From the NCBI GenBank assembly GCA_905479835.1, contig CAJQNZ010000027.1:1-43206 (forward strand): DNA of 43,206 bases, read 5' to 3'. Source of the DNA: an uncultured Flavobacteriaceae bacterium (GTDB taxonomy: Bacteria; Bacteroidota; Bacteroidia; Flavobacteriales; Flavobacteriaceae). Shown here piece by piece: positions 23,919 through 33,456 of this stretch. A program made the position numbers and the translations under genes. Each line of letters starts with the position of its first letter. Within the stretch, counting starts at the first letter, position 1. The notes below the pieces were generated by a model. It had not been told where the DNA came from. It worked only from the letters and a program-made list of their open reading frames with translations, and searched no databases.

Positions 23919-26042
<2,124 letters not shown>

Positions 26043-26056
26043 TTAAGATTTTATAT

Positions 26057-26926
26057 TTAATATAAATAGCCCATTTTCCCCATTTGATAATCACGCATTG
26101 CCTCCATAATTTCGGTTTGAGTATTCATCACGTAGGGTCCATATTGAGCAACTTTCTCATTGATAGGTTCACCAGATAAAATTAACAAAGTACTCTCCTT
26201 TGTTGCTTCAAATTCAATTGCACTTCCATCTTGATTGAAAGTTACCATCTGAATAACTCCTTTCTCAAGTGTAACTTCATTGTTTACTATTATTTCTCCT
26301 TCCAATAAATAAATAAGTGATTGATGTGTTTTTGGAATTTCGATTCTCATTCTTCCGCTTGCTGATGTTTTTGCTGTAAATACATTTACATCAGTTTGGG
26401 TTTGAATTAAACCATTACTCGTTTGCTGTTCTCCTGCAACAATTTTCAACTCAACACTTTTATCTTCATTGACGACAACTGGTATATCATCACTTTTAAC
26501 ATGCTGATAATTGGCAGACATCATTTTTTTTTCTGCTGGGAGATTTAACCATAATTGAATTCCTTCTAGTTCTCCTCCTTTTTTTACAAATTCTTTAGTA
26601 GGTCCTTCTGCATGGATAATTCCTCGCCCTGCAGTTGTCCATTGAACATCTCCTGCTTGTACAAGCATTTCATTTCCTAATGAATCTCTATGTAATTGCT
26701 CTCCTTTAAAAAGCAAAGTGATTGGTTCAAATCCACGATGTGGATGCGGACCAAGATCAAATGGATTGTTAAATTCACTTATAGCATAAGGTCCATAATG
26801 ATGTAATAATATAAAAGGATCAACATTTTCTATTCCATCTGTTGGTATTGGTTGCCGCAATCGTATTGGTCCCATATTTACTAAAGGGCTTCCTACTTTT
26901 TTTTGAATTGTTTTTAGTGTTTTCAT
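26057..26926 (-). CDS. Pirin family protein
   Basis: Pirins are bicupin proteins; some have quercetinase activity and bind iron through three His and one Glu. This 289-residue protein has the pirin opening (RLRQPIPTDGIENVDPFILL) and the metal-site motif HPHRGFEPIT (about 62-71), with HRDS and IIHAEG (about 105-121) supplying the other ligands, so the N-terminal cupin looks metal-binding. The C-terminal cupin lacks obvious ligands, as in relatives. It follows the MarR gene after 48 bp that contain a 20-bp palindrome. The substrate is unknown; context with an FMN reductase suggests handling of quinones or other electrophiles (inference). Confidence 0.9.
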   Translation of the reverse strand: MKTLKTIQKKVGSPLVNMGPIRLRQPIPTDGIENVDPFILLHHYGPYAISEFNNPFDLGPHPHRGFEPITLLFKGEQLHRDSLGNEMLVQAGDVQWTTAGRGIIHAEGPTKEFVKKGGELEGIQLWLNLPAEKKMMSANYQHVKSDDIPVVVNEDKSVELKIVAGEQQTSNGLIQTQTDVNVFTAKTSASGRMRIEIPKTHQSLIYLLEGEIIVNNEVTLEKGVIQMVTFNQDGSAIEFEATKESTLLILSGEPINEKVAQYGPYVMNTQTEIMEAMRDYQMGKMGYLY

Positions 26927-26940
26927 TTTTTTCTCTTTTA

Positions 26941-26960
26941 TTATTTTCCATAGAAAATAA
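26941..26960 (-). promoter_or_regulatory. Palindromic operator before the pirin gene
   Basis: TTATTTTCCATAGAAAATAA has perfect 8-base arms (TTATTTTC / GAAAATAA) around CATA, 14 bases before the pirin ATG and inside the 48-bp gap after the MarR gene. It matches the core of the palindrome in the 28416-28456 promoter at 18 of 20 positions. The nearby MarR protein is the obvious candidate to bind both. Confidence 0.7.
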
Positions 26961-26974
26961 TTGAATACATTTTT

Positions 26975-27412
26975 TTATCTTAGTTTGTCTAGTAAATTAC
27001 TTAATTGCACTGCTTCTTCATCAGTTATTTTTTCTAAAAGATCTAACTTGAAAATCTTATCAATTTCAGTTAATAATGTAAGCCCTTTAGAAGAAATTTT
27101 TATAAACACTACTCTTCTATCATGATCACAAGACAATCTTTCAATCAAATCTTTTTCACAGAGCTTGTCCATCAATCGTGTTGCATTGGGAGCACGTTCT
27201 ATCATTCTATCTTTAATGACTTTAACTTTAATAGGTTCTCCTGCTCCTCTTAAAATTCTGAGAATATTATATTGTTGGGGTGAGATTCCATAAGGTTTGA
27301 AAAACTCATTCTCAGTACTATTAAGCCAGTTGGCTGTATATTTAATATTGATAAGAGCTTTCACTTTATGGTTTGGAAATATTGACTCTATATCCTTAGA
27401 AATATCACCCAT
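26975..27412 (-). CDS. MarR-family transcriptional regulator
   Basis: The 145-residue protein is a winged-helix MarR regulator: GISPQQYNILRILRGAGEP (about 43-61), the recognition region RMIERAPNATRLMDKLCEKD (about 69-88) and the wing LSCDHDRRVVFIKISSKG (about 93-110) with the family DRR motif. MarR proteins usually repress nearby genes and release DNA on binding phenolic or oxidising ligands. No cysteine pair of the OhrR type is placed to suggest redox sensing. It lies 10 bases after the FMN reductase and is probably cotranscribed. Two near-identical palindromes, before pirin (26941) and before the DoxX-like gene (28435), are its likely sites; their AT-rich 20-bp form fits MarR dimers. Confidence 0.9.
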   Translation of the reverse strand: MGDISKDIESIFPNHKVKALINIKYTANWLNSTENEFFKPYGISPQQYNILRILRGAGEPIKVKVIKDRMIERAPNATRLMDKLCEKDLIERLSCDHDRRVVFIKISSKGLTLLTEIDKIFKLDLLEKITDEEAVQLSNLLDKLR

Positions 27413-27422
27413 TTATTTTATT

Positions 27423-27953
27423 TTAAATTGACTTTTGAAACTTTAAAATTTCGATGTCCAATTGCTTTTTAAGATCTTCGTTTATTAGTTTTCCATCTTT
27501 AAAATTATCATGAAAACTTGGTAATGAATAATCAGAAATAATATTTCCGCCCATATAAGGGAAACGACCTTTCGCAATTTCAAGAACAGTCGCTCCTCCT
27601 CTTGCTCCAGGAGAAGTTGCCAATAATAACATTGGTATATTACTCCATAACTTTCCATCAATTCTAGACATCCAGTCAAATAAATTTTTAAAAACAGTAG
27701 CGTAAGTACCATTATGCTCCGCTAAAGAAAGCACTATTCCATCTGAAGATGTTATTAAATCCAAAAATGCTTGCGCATTTTCAGGGATGCTAGATTCATT
27801 TTCCAAATCAATACCATAAATCGGCAATGGAAAATCATTTAAGTCAACCACATTCAATCCGACGTTATCAATCAAAGATGCAGCATAAGCTGCCCATTTT
27901 TTATTAATTGAATCTTTACTATTACTTCCAGCAAAAACGAGTATTTTTTTCAT
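27423..27953 (-). CDS. NAD(P)H-dependent FMN reductase family protein
   Basis: The 176-residue flavodoxin-like protein has the FMN phosphate loop GSNSKDSINKK (about 9-19), and SLAEHNGTYATVFKNLFDWM (about 96-115) matches the NADPH-dependent FMN reductase family (usually P-E-Y-N; here A-E-H-N). LATSPGARGGA is the next typical loop. Members reduce FMN, quinones, azo dyes or chromate with NAD(P)H. It heads the marR-pirin group, 88 bp after the DoxX-like gene. A redox defence role is suggested by the neighbours. Confidence 0.87.
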   Translation of the reverse strand: MKKILVFAGSNSKDSINKKWAAYAASLIDNVGLNVVDLNDFPLPIYGIDLENESSIPENAQAFLDLITSSDGIVLSLAEHNGTYATVFKNLFDWMSRIDGKLWSNIPMLLLATSPGARGGATVLEIAKGRFPYMGGNIISDYSLPSFHDNFKDGKLINEDLKKQLDIEILKFQKSI

Positions 27954-28041: not shown

Positions 28042-28392
28042 TTAATTTTTTTTACTATAAATATATGAAACGGTTAAAAATATCAAACCAAGAATGGCTC
28101 CCATTTGCTCTCCATCTCCTATCATTACATGTGCAAAAAAAGCAAGTACAAGTCCAAAGAAAAATCCAGCATATGCCCATTCTTTCAATGTTTTATTTCC
28201 AACAAACCAAATTGCTGCTAAACCCAATAATTTTGCTACTGCGTATGGATAAATGATATAGGTTGGATATCCAAAATCGGTAAACATTCCAGCTACTTCA
28301 GCATGATTAAAAAAATACATTCCTGCAGAAAACAACATTAACAATGTTAGTAATCCTGTAGCGATATAATAAATAATTTTATTTTTTTTCAT
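28042..28392 (-). CDS. DoxX-like membrane protein
   Basis: The 116-residue protein has four hydrophobic segments and the DoxX-like pattern YYIATGLLTLLMLFSAGMYF ... GYPTYIIYPYAVAKLLGLAAI. DoxX-like proteins sit in the inner membrane and are often regulated with redox genes; biochemical role mostly unknown. I start at 28392 (MKKNKIIYYI). An upstream frame from 28446 would add 18 residues (MENKIIYYIFVK...), but that DNA is a direct repeat overlapping the promoter, and the extension is a repeated copy of the true N-terminus. The promoter (28416-28446) carries a palindrome that matches the one before pirin. Confidence 0.82.
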   Translation of the reverse strand: MKKNKIIYYIATGLLTLLMLFSAGMYFFNHAEVAGMFTDFGYPTYIIYPYAVAKLLGLAAIWFVGNKTLKEWAYAGFFFGLVLAFFAHVMIGDGEQMGAILGLIFLTVSYIYSKKN

Positions 28393-28442
28393 TTTGTTTG
28401 GCTTTATATACTTTACAAAAATATAATAAATAATTTTATTTT
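28364..28442. repeat. 22-bp direct repeat, two copies
   Basis: The same 22 bases (starting ATATAATAAATAATTTT) occur at 28364-28385, within the first codons of the DoxX-like gene, and at 28421-28442, within its promoter and operator. The second copy supplies one arm of the palindrome. Confidence 0.85.
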
Positions 28443-28456
28443 CCAAGGAAAATAAA
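28416..28456 (-). promoter_or_regulatory. DoxX-like gene promoter with palindromic MarR-type operator over the -33 box
   Basis: On the minus strand TTG (28446-28444), 20 nt, then TATTTTTG (28423-28416), a full match to the Bacteroidetes promoter. A perfect palindrome with 10-base arms TTTATTTTCC / GGAAAATAAA and a 2-base centre spans 28435-28456, so the -33 TTG is exactly at its centre. Occupation would mask the -33 box. Confidence 0.72.
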
Positions 28457-28477
28457 TCCTAGGAGTATTAAATAAAA

Positions 28478-28507
28478 AATGCGAGCCTTAAAAATAAGGC
28501 TCGCATT
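28478..28507 (-). terminator. aceA terminator
   Basis: A 13-bp perfect stem (28478-28490 with 28495-28507; core GCGAGCCTTA) with AAAA in the loop, followed on the minus strand by a T-run. It lies 26 bases after the aceA stop. Confidence 0.92.
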
Positions 28508-28533: not shown

Positions 28534-30165
28534 TTACGCCACTACAGCTAATGTATTTTCAGTATCTGAGGCGTCTGAATTATCTCTAAACTGATTAGAA
28601 GTATTGTTTTCACCCCCTGCTTTCAAGGCTTTATCTCCTGCAAAGAAAGTTTTATGATCATCTCCTAGATCAGAGCCAGCCATTCGTTGATGCTTCACAC
28701 ATGAAACACCTTTTCTTATTTCTTGTCTTTGTACCCCTTTAACATAAGCCAACATACCTTCATTTCCAAAATATCCTTCCGTAAGATCATTCATATGCAA
28801 TGCTGTTGTATGATATGTAGGAAGTGTAATTAAATGATGGAAAATACCTGCTTCTCTTGCTCCGTCTCTTTGAAAAGTTTTAATTTTTTCATCAGCACGG
28901 TGACATAATTCAGAACCGTCATATTGAGCATCCATTAAATTATTTCTATCATAAGCAGTCATATTCTCTCCTTCTTTTTGCATTTCTTCAAATACTTGAT
29001 TTCTGAAATTCAATGTCCAGTTAAAAGATGGAGAATTATTATACACCAACTTCGCATTCGGTATAACTTCTCTCACTCTATTTACCATATTGGCAATTTG
29101 AGCAACATTAGGAGTTGGAGTTTCTATCCATAATAAATCAGCTCCATTCTGAAGACTTGTGATACAATCCAATACAACTCGATCAATATTAGAACCTTCT
29201 TTAAACTTATACAATCCATTTGCTAGTCTAACTGGTCGAACCAATCTACCTTCTCTTTTCAATAAAACATCATCCTCTTTAGCATCATGTATATCAATTT
29301 CTTCTGCTTCTACAAATGATAAATACTGTGATGCTAAATCTCCTGTTTCTTGACTTACTGGTAATTTCTGCGTAAGTCCAGCACCTTCAGAATCAGTTCT
29401 AGCAACAATAATTCCTTCTTCTACACCCAATTCCAAAAATGCATATCTAATCGCATTCAATTTTGCTATAAAATCCTCATGCGGTACAGTTACTTTACCA
29501 TCTTGATGACCACATTGCTTCGCATCAGAAACTTGGTTCTCAATCTGAATCGCACATGCTCCTGCTTCAATCATTTTTTTAGTCAATAAATAAGTTGCTT
29601 CTTCATTCCCAAAACCTGCATCAATATCTGCAATAATAGGAACTATATGTGTTTCAAAATTGTCTATTAAATCTTGTACATCCTCTCCATTTTCCTTTCT
29701 TTTGAATAAATCATTTAATTCGATAGCATCTGCTTGACGAAGAAAATCATAAATTTCATTTATTAATGAAGGAACCGCTGTTTTTTCATGCATCGATTGA
29801 TCTGGTAAAGGTCCAAATTCTGAACGCAATGCTGCTACCATCCAACCTGAAAGATATAAATATCTTTTACTCGTTGTCTTATGATGCTTTTTTACAGCTA
29901 TCATTTTTTGCTGCGCAACAAAACCATGCCAGCAACCAAGAGATTGTGTATAATTAGAAGAATCAGCATCGTATGCCGCCATATCTTCTCTCATTATTGA
30001 CGCAGTATATTTTGCAATGTCCAACCCTGTTTTAAAACGATTCTGAGTTGCCATCCTTGCAGCACTTTCTGAATTTATGGCATCCCAAGAATTGCCATAT
30101 TTTGCTTTTAAACTTCTTACAGTTTCTAATGCTGAACTATAATTACTTTGTGCTAAATTTTTCAT
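28534..30165 (-). CDS. aceA: Isocitrate lyase (long, 530-residue-class form)
   Basis: Isocitrate lyase splits isocitrate into succinate and glyoxylate, the first step of the glyoxylate shunt. The 543-residue protein belongs to the long bacterial class: the catalytic-loop motif is KQCGHQDGKVTVP (about 212-224), where short enzymes have KKCGH, and IIADIDAGFGNEEATYLL (about 178-195) with VARTDSEGAG (about 251-260) carry the metal and substrate contacts. The start at MKNLAQSNYSSALE fits. It follows malate synthase after 82 bp that hold a hairpin, and ends at a strong terminator. It competes with the monomeric Icd at 4351. Confidence 0.95.
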   Translation of the reverse strand: MKNLAQSNYSSALETVRSLKAKYGNSWDAINSESAARMATQNRFKTGLDIAKYTASIMREDMAAYDADSSNYTQSLGCWHGFVAQQKMIAVKKHHKTTSKRYLYLSGWMVAALRSEFGPLPDQSMHEKTAVPSLINEIYDFLRQADAIELNDLFKRKENGEDVQDLIDNFETHIVPIIADIDAGFGNEEATYLLTKKMIEAGACAIQIENQVSDAKQCGHQDGKVTVPHEDFIAKLNAIRYAFLELGVEEGIIVARTDSEGAGLTQKLPVSQETGDLASQYLSFVEAEEIDIHDAKEDDVLLKREGRLVRPVRLANGLYKFKEGSNIDRVVLDCITSLQNGADLLWIETPTPNVAQIANMVNRVREVIPNAKLVYNNSPSFNWTLNFRNQVFEEMQKEGENMTAYDRNNLMDAQYDGSELCHRADEKIKTFQRDGAREAGIFHHLITLPTYHTTALHMNDLTEGYFGNEGMLAYVKGVQRQEIRKGVSCVKHQRMAGSDLGDDHKTFFAGDKALKAGGENNTSNQFRDNSDASDTENTLAVVA

Positions 30166-30210
30166 AATTTTGTTTTGATTATTAAGGTTATTCTAGATTT
30201 TGATAATTAC

Positions 30211-30241
30211 GTCTCGTTAACTATTCCAGTAGTTGCGAGAC
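30211..30241 (-). repeat. Hairpin in the aceB-aceA spacer
   Basis: GTCTCG (30211-30216) pairs with CGAGAC (30236-30241), and inside it AACTA with TAGTT around TTCCAG. On the minus strand no T-run follows it, so readthrough into aceA is likely; it may set relative mRNA levels of aceB and aceA. Confidence 0.5.
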
Positions 30242-30247
30242 ATTTTT

Positions 30248-31843
30248 TTATATATGATTGTATGCTGATAATGTTAAAAACTCTTTGTATTCTTTTGATA
30301 AAACTAATTCATCAAATAATTTAATTGCCAAACTAAATTTTCCTTTTTCATAACTATTTTTCCCAACTAAATTTTTGATTTTTTCCAATTCTTCTTTTTT
30401 CAATTGCTGATACATTTCTTGATTGAAAATTCTTTTATCTTCCAATTGAATATTTTTGCGCAACCAATACCAGACCTGAGTTCTAGAGATTTCTGCAGTT
30501 GCAGCGTCCTCCATTAAATTATAAATTGCAGCTGCGCCATTTCCTCGTAACCAACTTTCTATATATAAAATTCCTACGTTGATATTCTTTCTGATTCCTG
30601 CCTCTGTTATTGTCCCTTTTGGCATTTCTATTAAATCCAGTTCTGTTACTTTTACATCTTCTCGACCGATATGAATTTGATTTTTAGTCTTCATATTTTC
30701 ATTGAAAACATTCATCGCAACTGAAACTAAACCTGGATGAGCAACCCAAGTTCCATCATGTCCATTTTTCACCTCTTGCTCCTTGTCCGCCTGTACTTTA
30801 GCAAAAGCTAAATCATTTGCAATTGGATCATTCTTAATAGGGATTTGAGCCGCCATACCTCCCATTGCATGAACATTTCTTTTATGACAACGCTGAATAA
30901 CTTTCAAGGAATAAGTTCTCATAAAAGGCGTCTTCATAGTAACTTGATCTCTATTGGGTACCATAAAATCTGCATGATTTCTAAACTTCTTTATATATGA
31001 AAATATATAATCCCATCGCCCACAATTTAAACCAGCCATATGATCTTTCAATTCAAATATGATTTCGTCCAACTGAAAACTAGCCGTAATTGTTTCTATT
31101 AAAACGGTAGCTTTAATCGATTTTTGTGGGATGCTTAAATAATCTTGTGCAAAAACAAAAATGTCATTCCAAAGTCGTGCTTCTAAATAATGTTCCAGTT
31201 TTGGCAAATAAAAATAAGTTGCTGAACCTTGATCTTGCAGAGCTTTTATATTATGAAAAAAGAACAATCCAAAATCGACTAACGAGCCCGACATTTCCTC
31301 ACCCTCAACTATAAAATGCTTCTCATTTAAATGCAATCCTCTGGGTCGTACCAATAAAGTTGCCGTTTCAGTATTCAATTGATAAGTTGTATCTTTTTTC
31401 TCATTGTAATACGATATTGATTTATTGATAGCATCTCTTAGATTTATCTGTCCGTCAAGATTATTAGTAATAATAGGTGAATTGCTATCTTCAAAATCTG
31501 CCATAAAAGTTTTTGCTCCAGAGTTTAAAGCATTAATCACCATTTTTCTATCTACAGGACCAGTAATTTCAACTCTTCTATCCAATAAATCTTCAGGTAA
31601 TGGAGCACAGACCCAATCAGATTCTCTAATATGTTTAGTTTCTTCCGGAAAAGAAGGATAATTTCCAGCATCAAAATATGCCTGTTCTATTTCCCTTTCT
31701 CCAAGTAATTTTAATCTTCTTTGATTAAAACGATCATGCAATTCCAATAAAAATATTTTTGCTTTATCGGTTAAAACCTCTTGATACTCTTCAACTTTAA
31801 ATCCTTTAAAACTGATTTCTTTTACGATACTATTTTGCTCCAT
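30248..31843 (-). CDS. aceB: Malate synthase A
   Basis: Malate synthase condenses glyoxylate and acetyl-CoA to malate, completing the glyoxylate shunt. The 531-residue length and the signature KDHMAGLNCGRWDYIFSYIK (about 268-287) identify the A isoform. Other landmarks are FMADFEDSNSP (Mg-binding region), LLVRPRGLHLNEKH and the C-terminal NLMEDAATAEISRTQVWYWL with the catalytic Asp. It is the first gene of aceB-aceA, transcribed away from the RamB/ScfR-type regulator at 31972, with 128 bp between them that hold palindromic sites. Confidence 0.96.
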   Translation of the reverse strand: MEQNSIVKEISFKGFKVEEYQEVLTDKAKIFLLELHDRFNQRRLKLLGEREIEQAYFDAGNYPSFPEETKHIRESDWVCAPLPEDLLDRRVEITGPVDRKMVINALNSGAKTFMADFEDSNSPIITNNLDGQINLRDAINKSISYYNEKKDTTYQLNTETATLLVRPRGLHLNEKHFIVEGEEMSGSLVDFGLFFFHNIKALQDQGSATYFYLPKLEHYLEARLWNDIFVFAQDYLSIPQKSIKATVLIETITASFQLDEIIFELKDHMAGLNCGRWDYIFSYIKKFRNHADFMVPNRDQVTMKTPFMRTYSLKVIQRCHKRNVHAMGGMAAQIPIKNDPIANDLAFAKVQADKEQEVKNGHDGTWVAHPGLVSVAMNVFNENMKTKNQIHIGREDVKVTELDLIEMPKGTITEAGIRKNINVGILYIESWLRGNGAAAIYNLMEDAATAEISRTQVWYWLRKNIQLEDKRIFNQEMYQQLKKEELEKIKNLVGKNSYEKGKFSLAIKLFDELVLSKEYKEFLTLSAYNHI

Positions 31844-31870
31844 AATTAGAATAATTTAATTTCTACTCTG

Positions 31871-31953
31871 CAATACTATGAATTAATATTGAACTCCACA
31901 AGCGAACGTTCGCTAAATTTATAAAAAACTTTATTTGTCATAATTCGCTAAAT
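31871..31953 (-). promoter_or_regulatory. aceB promoter and operator repeats shared with the divergent regulator
   Basis: On the minus strand TTG (31901-31899), 20 nt, then TAGTATTG (31878-31871), one mismatch from consensus. Directly upstream of the -33 box is the perfect palindrome GCGAACGTTCGC (31902-31913). Its right arm continues as TTCGCTAAAT (31909-31918), and the same 10-mer recurs at 31944-31953 inside the regulator promoter. Spacing between copies is 35 bp. The likely ligand is the protein encoded at 31972. Confidence 0.65.
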
Positions 31954-31966
31954 AGTTATATCTTTG
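31935..31966 (+). promoter_or_regulatory. Promoter of the RamB/ScfR-type regulator
   Basis: TTG (31935-31937, in TTTG), 21 nt, then TATCTTTG (31959-31966), a perfect -7 box, 5 bases before the ATG at 31972. The 10-mer TTCGCTAAAT (31944-31953) lies in the spacer, so the regulator may repress itself. The transcript would be leaderless or nearly so. Confidence 0.7.
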
Positions 31967-31971
31967 TTATT

Positions 31972-33456
31972 ATGAATATAGAAGATGAATACATTCGATT
32001 GATATTTGGATTGAAACTAAAGCAAATCCGAACAGATAAAAAACTGTCTTTGTTTGGATTAGCAAAATTAACAGGACTTTCAAAATCATATTTAAACGAA
32101 ATTGAAAAAGGAAAGAAATATCCAAAAACTGATAAAATATTACTCTTATCAGAAAGTCTTAAGGTACCTTATGATCATTTGGTTTCTTTAAAACTAGACA
32201 AGAATCTTGCTCCAATAGGTGAAATCTTACAGTCAAAAATCTTAAAAGAGATTCCTCTAGAACTTTTTGGTATTAAAGAAAACAACTTAATAGATATTGT
32301 TGCGAATGCTCCTGCAAAAGTGAATGCTTTTATAAGTACCATTATAAAAATTTCACTGAATTACAACTTGACACGGGAAAGTTTTTTCCTTGCTTCTCTT
32401 CGCTCCTATCAAGAGGCTCACAACAATTATTTTGATGATATTGAAAATGATGTTGAGAAATTTGCAAATTCATATCATATCAATTTATCAAAAGAAATTT
32501 CATCATGCGACTTGGAAGAAATCTTAATTGAAGAATTTGGATATACAATAAATGATAATGAGCTTTCAAAACATGAAAATTTAAAAGAAATAAGAAATAT
32601 TTTTATTCAAAAAAAGAACATCTTGTTAATTGACAGAGATGTTACTGAAGCTCAGAAAACATTTATTTATGCGAAAGAAATCGCCTATAATTATTTAAAA
32701 ATCGAAAATAGACTGTATACTTTCCCTTGGATAAAATTTGAAAGTTTCGATCAAGTCTTACATAATTTTATTGCCTCCTATTTTGCAGGAGCGCTTATCA
32801 TTCCGAAGAAAAATCTAGAAGATAAATTAACAACTTTTTTTGAATCAGAAGAATGGAAACCAGCAAAATTGCATAGAATTATCAATAGTTATAATTGCTC
32901 AGAAGAAACGTTTTATCAACGCTTAACAAATATTTTACCTAAGTATTTTAATATTAAAAACTTATTCTTTCTGCGTTTTACTAAAAAAGTAGACTCGCCT
33001 AACTATAGGTTAAGCAAGGAATTGCATATAACACAACAACAAGAGCCTCATGCCAATCGCAAAAATGAACATTATTGTCGTAGATGGATATCTATTAAAA
33101 CAATCAAAGATTTAGAAGAATCTCAAAAAAATAAAAAAACATTTGGAATTCAGATTTCATCTTATGAAAATTCAAAAAGTGAATACCTTGTTCTTTCCTC
33201 TGCTGTTTCTGACCCTTTCAAGAAAAATATCAATAGAAGTGTGAGTATCGGTATGCTACTTTCTCCTCATTTAAAAAATAAATTAAAGTTTTTAAAAGAA
33301 GATACTTTTGGAAAAAGAATAGTTGGAGTCACTTGTGAAACCTGTTCAGTAATGAATTGTGAAGAGCGAGCTGCTGAATCATGGCAATTGGAAAAAGAAC
33401 ATAAACACACTGAAATTGCTGAAACTGTTCAGAAAATTATCAATTCTTACGATTAA
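31972..33456 (+). CDS. RamB/ScfR-type (short-chain fatty acyl) transcriptional regulator
   Basis: The 494-residue protein has an XRE helix-turn-helix at its N-terminus (KLSLFGLAKLTGLSKSYLNE, about 24-43, followed by IEKGKKYP), a middle region related to the M78/IrrE domain but without an HExxH zinc motif, and a C-terminal DUF2083-like segment with the cysteine pattern CETCSVMNCEERAAESW (about 455-471). This is the layout of the ScfR family, which includes RamB of Corynebacterium, a regulator of acetate and glyoxylate-shunt genes, and PrpC/PrpD-linked regulators. It is divergent from aceBA and followed after 38 bp by an acyl-CoA carboxylase subunit. It probably senses an acyl-CoA and controls aceBA; the direction of control is not known. 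Confidence 0.88.
   Translation: MNIEDEYIRLIFGLKLKQIRTDKKLSLFGLAKLTGLSKSYLNEIEKGKKYPKTDKILLLSESLKVPYDHLVSLKLDKNLAPIGEILQSKILKEIPLELFGIKENNLIDIVANAPAKVNAFISTIIKISLNYNLTRESFFLASLRSYQEAHNNYFDDIENDVEKFANSYHINLSKEISSCDLEEILIEEFGYTINDNELSKHENLKEIRNIFIQKKNILLIDRDVTEAQKTFIYAKEIAYNYLKIENRLYTFPWIKFESFDQVLHNFIASYFAGALIIPKKNLEDKLTTFFESEEWKPAKLHRIINSYNCSEETFYQRLTNILPKYFNIKNLFFLRFTKKVDSPNYRLSKELHITQQQEPHANRKNEHYCRRWISIKTIKDLEESQKNKKTFGIQISSYENSKSEYLVLSSAVSDPFKKNINRSVSIGMLLSPHLKNKLKFLKEDTFGKRIVGVTCETCSVMNCEERAAESWQLEKEHKHTEIAETVQKIINSYD

Follow-up and report, generated by a model that had tools for sequence, protein, structure and literature searches.

The window, the whole 43,206-nucleotide stretch from an uncultured Flavobacteriaceae bacterium that was analysed here, carries on its minus strand four genes in the order DoxX_2, FMN_red, MarR and pirin, with predicted terminators on either side. 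The first operon gene (28042..28392, minus strand, with its ATG at position 28392) encodes a DoxX_2 family membrane protein (Pfam PF13564, E 9e-15), and the genes that follow on the same strand encode an NADPH-dependent FMN reductase family flavoprotein (27423..27953; PF03358, E 1.5e-29), a MarR-family regulator of 145 amino acids (26975..27412; PF01047, MarR fold), which we propose as the repressor of both sites described below and of itself, and pirin (26057..26926; PF02678 and PF05726). Both minus-strand intrinsic terminators come from a consensus scan; the one upstream of the DoxX promoter (28478..28507) has a 13-bp stem and lies after aceA, and the one after pirin (26010..26034) is the likely end of the unit. 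Because the gap between the FMN reductase gene and marR is 10 bp, the simplest assumption is that the operator-bearing DoxX promoter also serves marR. A preliminary description of this DNA, made from the sequence alone, had grouped pirin, FMN reductase and DoxX in one unit; these genes are indeed present, but it missed that marR is itself a member of a DoxX-FMN reductase-MarR-pirin operon.

Further upstream, at 28534-33456, a divergent HTH/IrrE-type regulator with a weak likeness to RamB (56 of 700 bits) adjoins genes that we take to be aceA and aceB-like, and aceA lies directly upstream of DoxX also in three other loci (L179, L181 and L196).

Downstream of the unit, the gene of a FadH/OYE-type flavoenzyme (likely ATG 25943) was considered as a fifth operon member and rejected, as it follows the predicted terminator and has another palindrome. 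That palindrome, TTATGCGTGCATAA at 25963-25976, is preceded by a TATCTTGCAA-like element and is found again ahead of OYE in the 24 named relatives listed (20 exact to the search pattern, 4 near by eye), and TTATGCRYGCATAA is found in 66 of 100 family genomes, against 6 of 100 for the backwards control. Among 30 TTATGCRYGCATAA loci inspected it precedes 11 genes of one regulator family, presumably MarR-type-like, as well as eight genes that we take to be nitronate monooxygenase-like and two presumed EtfB-like genes. The OYE palindrome probably marks a separate MarR regulon, perhaps one concerned with fatty-acid breakdown.

The DoxX promoter operator

Within the DoxX promoter (minus-strand sequence TAGGATTTATTTTCCTTGGAAAATAAAATTATTTATTATATTTTTGTAAAG) lies operator 1, the type I site, at 28435..28456, a perfect palindrome TTTATTTTCC-N2-GGAAAATAAA that recurs in relatives and reads TTTATTTTCC-AA-GGAAAATAAA as numbered and TTTATTTTCC-TT-GGAAAATAAA on the minus strand. 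The -33 element TTG (28444..28446, minus strand) forms its centre, and the -7 element TATTTTTG (TAnnTTTG; 28416..28423, minus strand) follows, its TA separated from the TTG by exactly 20 nt, which agrees with the preliminary description on the perfect palindrome, its centring and the distance. Sigma-A promoters of the Bacteroidota have a -33 TTG about 20 nt upstream of the -7 box, and the window promoter fits that pattern, with a TAnnTTTG box and a TTG 20 nt upstream. TAnnTTTG is given as the Bacteroidota -7 consensus in a passage of an earlier study (PMC9723704). A secondary palindrome or half-site, TCCTAGGA (28457..28464), has its centre 15 bp upstream of that of operator 1, and judged from its sequence the promoter operator is a composite with a second half-site or palindrome at that distance. 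The preliminary description, which treated the operator as a single palindrome, thus had the main element and missed the upstream one; its span of 28364-28456 contains the operator at 28435-28456 together with the promoter and the gene start.

Conservation of the operator in related loci

A family-wide search of 397 genomes gave some match at E 1e-10 in 319, from which we defined a close-orthologue set of 148 genomes with E 5e-38 or better (the next best genome had 3e-33), at least one of which, L134, may represent a paralogue. We read 130 loci (L005-L134, the window included), with 18 of the 148 outside this set. The operator precedes the first operon gene in 126 of the 130 loci, namely 123 loci and three that are led by azoR (L025, L100 and L112); it was not found in the other four, L011 (cut at a contig end), L034, L092 and L134. 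The site-1 consensus TAKWTTCCNNGGAAWMTA, with 16 constrained positions, matches before the first gene within 3 mismatches in 123 of 130 loci, within 1 in 109 and exactly in 82, counts that are partly circular since the consensus is a fitted one, drawn up with the loci already in view. Shuffle and backwards controls were scored with the same consensus string: dinucleotide-shuffled regions match within 3 mismatches in 4.4% of cases (114/2600) and within 1 in 0.04%, and the backwards consensus matches within 3 mismatches in one locus of 130.

The promoter geometry is also largely fixed. At 108 of 123 sites the distance from the centre triplet to the start of TAnnTTTG is 20-22 nt, in 96 of them exactly 20 nt, and at 15 sites the box is lacking at these distances. 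The centre dinucleotide is TT in 87 sites, TA in 22 and AT in 14, so that in 36 of 123 sites the central triplet is not TTG; the -7 box is present in 82 of 87, 19 of 22 and 7 of 14 of these, respectively. Around the aligned sites the palindrome, the CATGGAA element upstream of it and TAnnTTTG are the three best-conserved blocks, and two A/T-rich stretches, from -27 to -22 and from +10 to +18, show moderate conservation. In 102 of 123 loci CnnGG occupies positions -16 to -12 relative to the centre, and when offsets from -30 to +59 were scanned its count exceeded 10 only there and at the core itself. At least eight loci have an extra copy 33 bp downstream that is merged with the -7 box (TATATTTGCCATGGAAA). 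With 129 related loci behind it, and a palindrome that tracks marR, the earlier proposal of a MarR regulon whose operator is centred on the -33 box gains considerably.

The gene content is conserved as well, an FMN reductase gene lying near marR in 128 of 130 loci and a gene of the pirin cluster being present in 119. DoxX was counted near marR in at least 50 of 130, a lower bound because the sequence upstream of FMN reductase extends to 1000 nt in just 99 loci. Further neighbours among the 130 loci are Acetyltransf_CG (36), Fer4_19/CDGSH (11), azoR (3) and OsmC (3). A phylum search of 296 genomes gave six at E 1e-35, the window's own included; all the matches listed come from the same family, so that the search bears on that family alone.

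A second operator before pirin

Operator 2, the type II site (TTATTTTCCATAGAAAATAA, 26941..26960), lies between marR and pirin and matches operator 1, 26941-26960 being 90% identical (18/20) to 28436-28455, just as the preliminary description had counted. The window site is mismatched at one core position (TTCT-AT-GGAA, minus strand) and reads TGTA where others have TTTA, deviations because of which the control of pirin may be weaker here. Site 2 follows marR, within 2 mismatches, in 36 of 130 loci, of which 34 are among the 57 with a pirin of the window type and two among the 62 with a shorter type; in the 11 other loci neither a pirin there nor site 2 was found. Its absence from 94 of 130 loci thus includes 23 of the 57 with window-type pirin. 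The controls for site 2 gave 8 of 2600 shuffles and none with the backwards consensus.

Part of the earlier -33 operator claim does not extend to this site: it stands for DoxX, but the pirin operator differs in geometry from the promoter operator and, on the sequences compared, does not belong to that -33 class. The idea that a canonical promoter follows it was rejected, as the TAnnTTTG geometry, searched over a stretch about 14-26 nt on, is absent at all 44 pirin sites of a named set of relatives (0/44). There is a fixed A-tract, A-W4-TTT-R (AWWWWTTTR), at -23 to -15 from the centre of the pirin operator (80 distinct sites, both sets; for example L012, L032 and L177), which by eye resembles the T-run of a marR terminator in several loci and in other pirin loci reads AAAAATTT with no evident hairpin. 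The idea that the centre of site 2 is always AT was dropped, since it holds in 34 of 34 sites of the first set but in the second set (n=46) AT occurs 21 times, TT 15, AA 6 and others 4.

Targets in named relatives

The named set consists of the best 80 of 475 relatives, five of which share marR DNA with the first set; the marR DNA of one, a Tamlana (L200), is the same as that of L006. Genera among the 80 named loci include Tenacibaculum, Polaribacter, Psychroserpens, Kordia, Seonamhaeicola and Tamlana. Operators in this set precede DoxX (40), pirin (44), FMN reductase (21), marR (12) and other or unassigned targets (23), the last including glutaredoxin-like, azoR(-like) and OsmC genes, and all 40 of the DoxX sites have the -7 box at 20-22 nt. 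Tenacibaculum pelagium (L177) has three operators, which precede DoxX-OsmC-FMN reductase-Fer4_19/CDGSH, glutaredoxin-marR and pirin.

Rarity of the operator and its link to marR

Two matches at 3 mismatches or fewer occur in the window, against 0.25 expected. A possible spread of the palindrome to unrelated places in the genome had been raised in the preliminary description, and no such spread was seen: in the organism's own assembly (1.9 Mb searched, 82% complete) these two are the sole sites within 2 mismatches of TTATTTTCC-N2-GGAAAATAA, with five more at 3 mismatches, against 11 at 3 or fewer for the backwards control. An exact composite pattern (TTCCWWGGAA, 17-19 nt, TAnnTTTG) gave 131 matches in the 397 genomes, 93 of them beside marR and 38 elsewhere; the marR-adjacent composite is thus present in 93 of the 148 orthologue-bearing genomes and missing in 55. 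The 38 off-operon matches, above the 12 listed for the backwards composite control, divide into 18 in genomes with an orthologue and 20 in genomes without, and any composite match at all occurs in 20 of the 249 genomes without an orthologue.

Five of the 38 off-operon composites were inspected: a site before yceI, three inside open frames (G063, G103 and G156), and one, in G033, ahead of an mnmA-like gene that may be another target. At the yceI site, in G131, an exact operator stands before a lone yceI, far from marR (L166 3093-3110, G131:C1:1297392), with TAnnTTTG starting 20 nt on, and from this arrangement it appears to be the one convincing off-operon member of the regulon among the places inspected. 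The exact 18-mer is found in 42 of 50 chosen orthologue-bearing genomes, where it occurs off-operon only in G131 and, before a gene that we take to be radC-like and with no composite match, in G353 (backwards control 0), and on the strength of these 50 genomes a wide regulon was rejected.

Weighing of alternatives

What the computation shows is where the sites lie, how well they are conserved, that their promoter geometry is fixed, that they go with marR and that they are rare genome-wide. Three other explanations were weighed. Chance inverted repeats in an AT-rich genome would be the simplest, since short repeats in two copies often arise by chance and the organism's own genome has five further sites at 3 mismatches, yet these are fewer than in the backwards control, and the palindrome keeps its position in 126 of 130 loci against 4.4% of shuffles; we regard chance as ruled out by the shuffles and the footprint, for practical purposes a negligible prospect. 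The palindromes could also bind a regulator encoded elsewhere, with the MarR gene a mere passenger of the operon. Recognition of the palindromes by MarR is, after all, deduced from sequence, the exact composite beside marR is missing in the 55 orthologue-bearing genomes noted above, and 20 genomes without an orthologue have a composite match. This explanation nevertheless seems improbable to us: the exact 18-mer is nearly confined to the neighbourhood of marR in the 50 orthologue-bearing genomes, and in two loci (L183 and L191) the operator precedes marR although neither DoxX nor FMN reductase was detected in the vicinity. A change of operator, moreover, goes with one residue of the protein. 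The two arms mostly covary, the fourth base being symmetric in 96 of 123 sites, and residue 73, which directly precedes an invariant PNxTR beside the recognition region of this MarR, is K in 7 of the 9 orthologues whose operators read TACC/GGTA and in none of the 90 whose operators read TTCC/GGAA, a link that is supporting only, as the R73K sequences are related by descent and it may reflect ancestry.

Slightly less probable still is that MarR activates the operon, for instance by contacting the polymerase in one ligand state. Some MarR-family proteins do activate, and the upstream half-site, 12-16 bp from the palindrome centre, could suit an activator, but the main palindrome covers the -33 element itself and in the loci with a copy 33 bp downstream the -7 box is covered too, both of which suit exclusion of the polymerase.

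Proposed mechanism and significance

We therefore favour, at a probability of roughly 0.88, repression and autoregulation by MarR of the DoxX / FMN reductase / MarR / pirin operon through an operator that covers the -33 element. A dimer of the 26975-27412 protein would bind TAKWTTCC-N2-GGAAWMTA and repress, rather than activate, its own operon: with the palindrome centred on the -33 TTG, the dimer bound at the DoxX promoter would deny sigma-A RNA polymerase its -33 contact. Because of the second palindrome 15 bp upstream there are probably two dimers at this promoter, on overlapping palindromes, which we take as the natural reading of the composite operator. DoxX, FMN reductase and marR would then be silenced jointly, giving negative autoregulation, and a further dimer at the marR-pirin site would keep separate transcription of pirin down, with the operator there either filling the spacer of a non-canonical promoter or blocking elongation. 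A quinone-like compound, a small electrophilic or redox-active aromatic, might inactivate MarR, upon which the reductase, the membrane protein and pirin would be made until the compound is removed. That the signal class is electrophile or quinone stress is suggested, at about even odds, by the presence of FMN reductase, azoreductase, OsmC, glutaredoxin, Fer4_19/CDGSH, DoxX and pirin and by the analogy with MhqR.

As an autoregulating MarR stress operon the system is ordinary in kind, well conserved and provided with a clear operator. We entertain, as a tentative and rather less probable extension, a family-wide flavobacterial stress regulon in which one MarR uses two operator classes and two routes of repression, and in which the element spreads as a ready-made repressed promoter. 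Its first class would be a 33-bp promoter operator in which two palindromes overlap at a distance of 15 bp and the inner of them is the -33 element, and its second the pirin operator beside a phased A-tract, outside any canonical promoter; since operator and -33 element are one sequence, the element could in this case move to yceI, glutaredoxin, azoR, OsmC or a lone marR.

Few transcription-factor regulons have, to our knowledge, been defined in the Bacteroidota, and among the open-licence PMC papers listed in our searches the regulon had no match by name in titles or abstract starts. The phylum gains here a concrete operator, its likely regulator, the operator's fixed relation to the -33/-7 promoter and a gene set common to several marine genera. 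Pirin, the biological role of which one study still describes as mostly unknown (PMC5557065), is linked with a set of redox genes and a candidate regulator.

Comparison with known systems

The regulator has a MarR winged-helix domain (PF01047, 37.4 bits against a cut-off of 24.6) and a predicted MarR fold (pLDDT 86), whose nearest folds in Foldseek are HpaR, MftR, a Planctomyces MarR and E. coli MarR. Members of the MarR family bind a pseudo-palindromic operator of 16-20 bp close to their own gene and let go of it upon ligand binding; a palindrome of this sort precedes the marR operon in 126 of 130 loci. Of these the HpaR group (TIGR02337; PDB 22oz, 7el3) provides both the best NCBIfam model and the top Foldseek match, but TIGR02337 scores 43.4 bits against a cut-off of 121.2 and no homoprotocatechuate genes were noticed in the unit, so the protein is not HpaR. 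With E. coli MarR it shares the fold and winged-helix DNA binding. The E. coli protein has a copper/thiol switch at Cys80, near the region of which Cys85 lies here. Cys85 is present in 101 and Cys95 in 97 of 130 orthologues, and since neither is in all of them a switch through either cannot be universal; a family-wide thiol switch is thereby ruled out, and one in the window MarR, which has both cysteines, is possible.

A similar gene set is induced in Pseudomonas fluorescens In5 against Rhizoctonia solani, where the portions of the report that bear on this list pirin-family quercetinases, FMN-dependent NADH-azoreductases and a DoxX protein, and also a ring-opening dioxygenase and a glutathionyl-hydroquinone reductase (PMC5557065). 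That comparison differs in being with a transcriptome from another phylum, and those portions give no shared operon or operator (PMC5557065).

The system closest in manner of working is MhqR of B. subtilis and S. aureus. Both proteins have the MarR fold, S. aureus MhqR (9qdr) standing at Foldseek rank 42 with 21% identity, and the MhqR regulon has a DoxX-like member, mhqP. MhqR is inactivated by methylhydroquinone and controls azoreductase, nitroreductase and dioxygenase genes; here an FMN reductase gene lies in 128 of 130 loci and 3 have an azoR-like flavodoxin, whereas the larger gene clusters listed for these loci include no dioxygenase; unlike in MhqR, there are also pirin, OsmC, Fer4_19/CDGSH and glutaredoxin genes. 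As described in parts of one study, MhqR too is one of the MarR-type repressors; the promoter of its own operon contains an inverted repeat of 18-20 bp, and it has a small regulon, which in B. subtilis includes azoR2, as an azoreductase occurs in three loci here, and S. aureus MhqR responds without thiol chemistry (PMC6798810). The MhqR operator given there, TATCTCGAA-aTCGAaATA, lies at -6 to +12 of the start (PMC6798810), whereas the operator here, TATATTCC-TT-GGAATATA, is centred at -33, and its consensus TAKWTTCC-N2-GGAAWMTA does not match that sequence. By analogy, then, the flavobacterial regulator would work in an MhqR-like mode through an unrelated operator.
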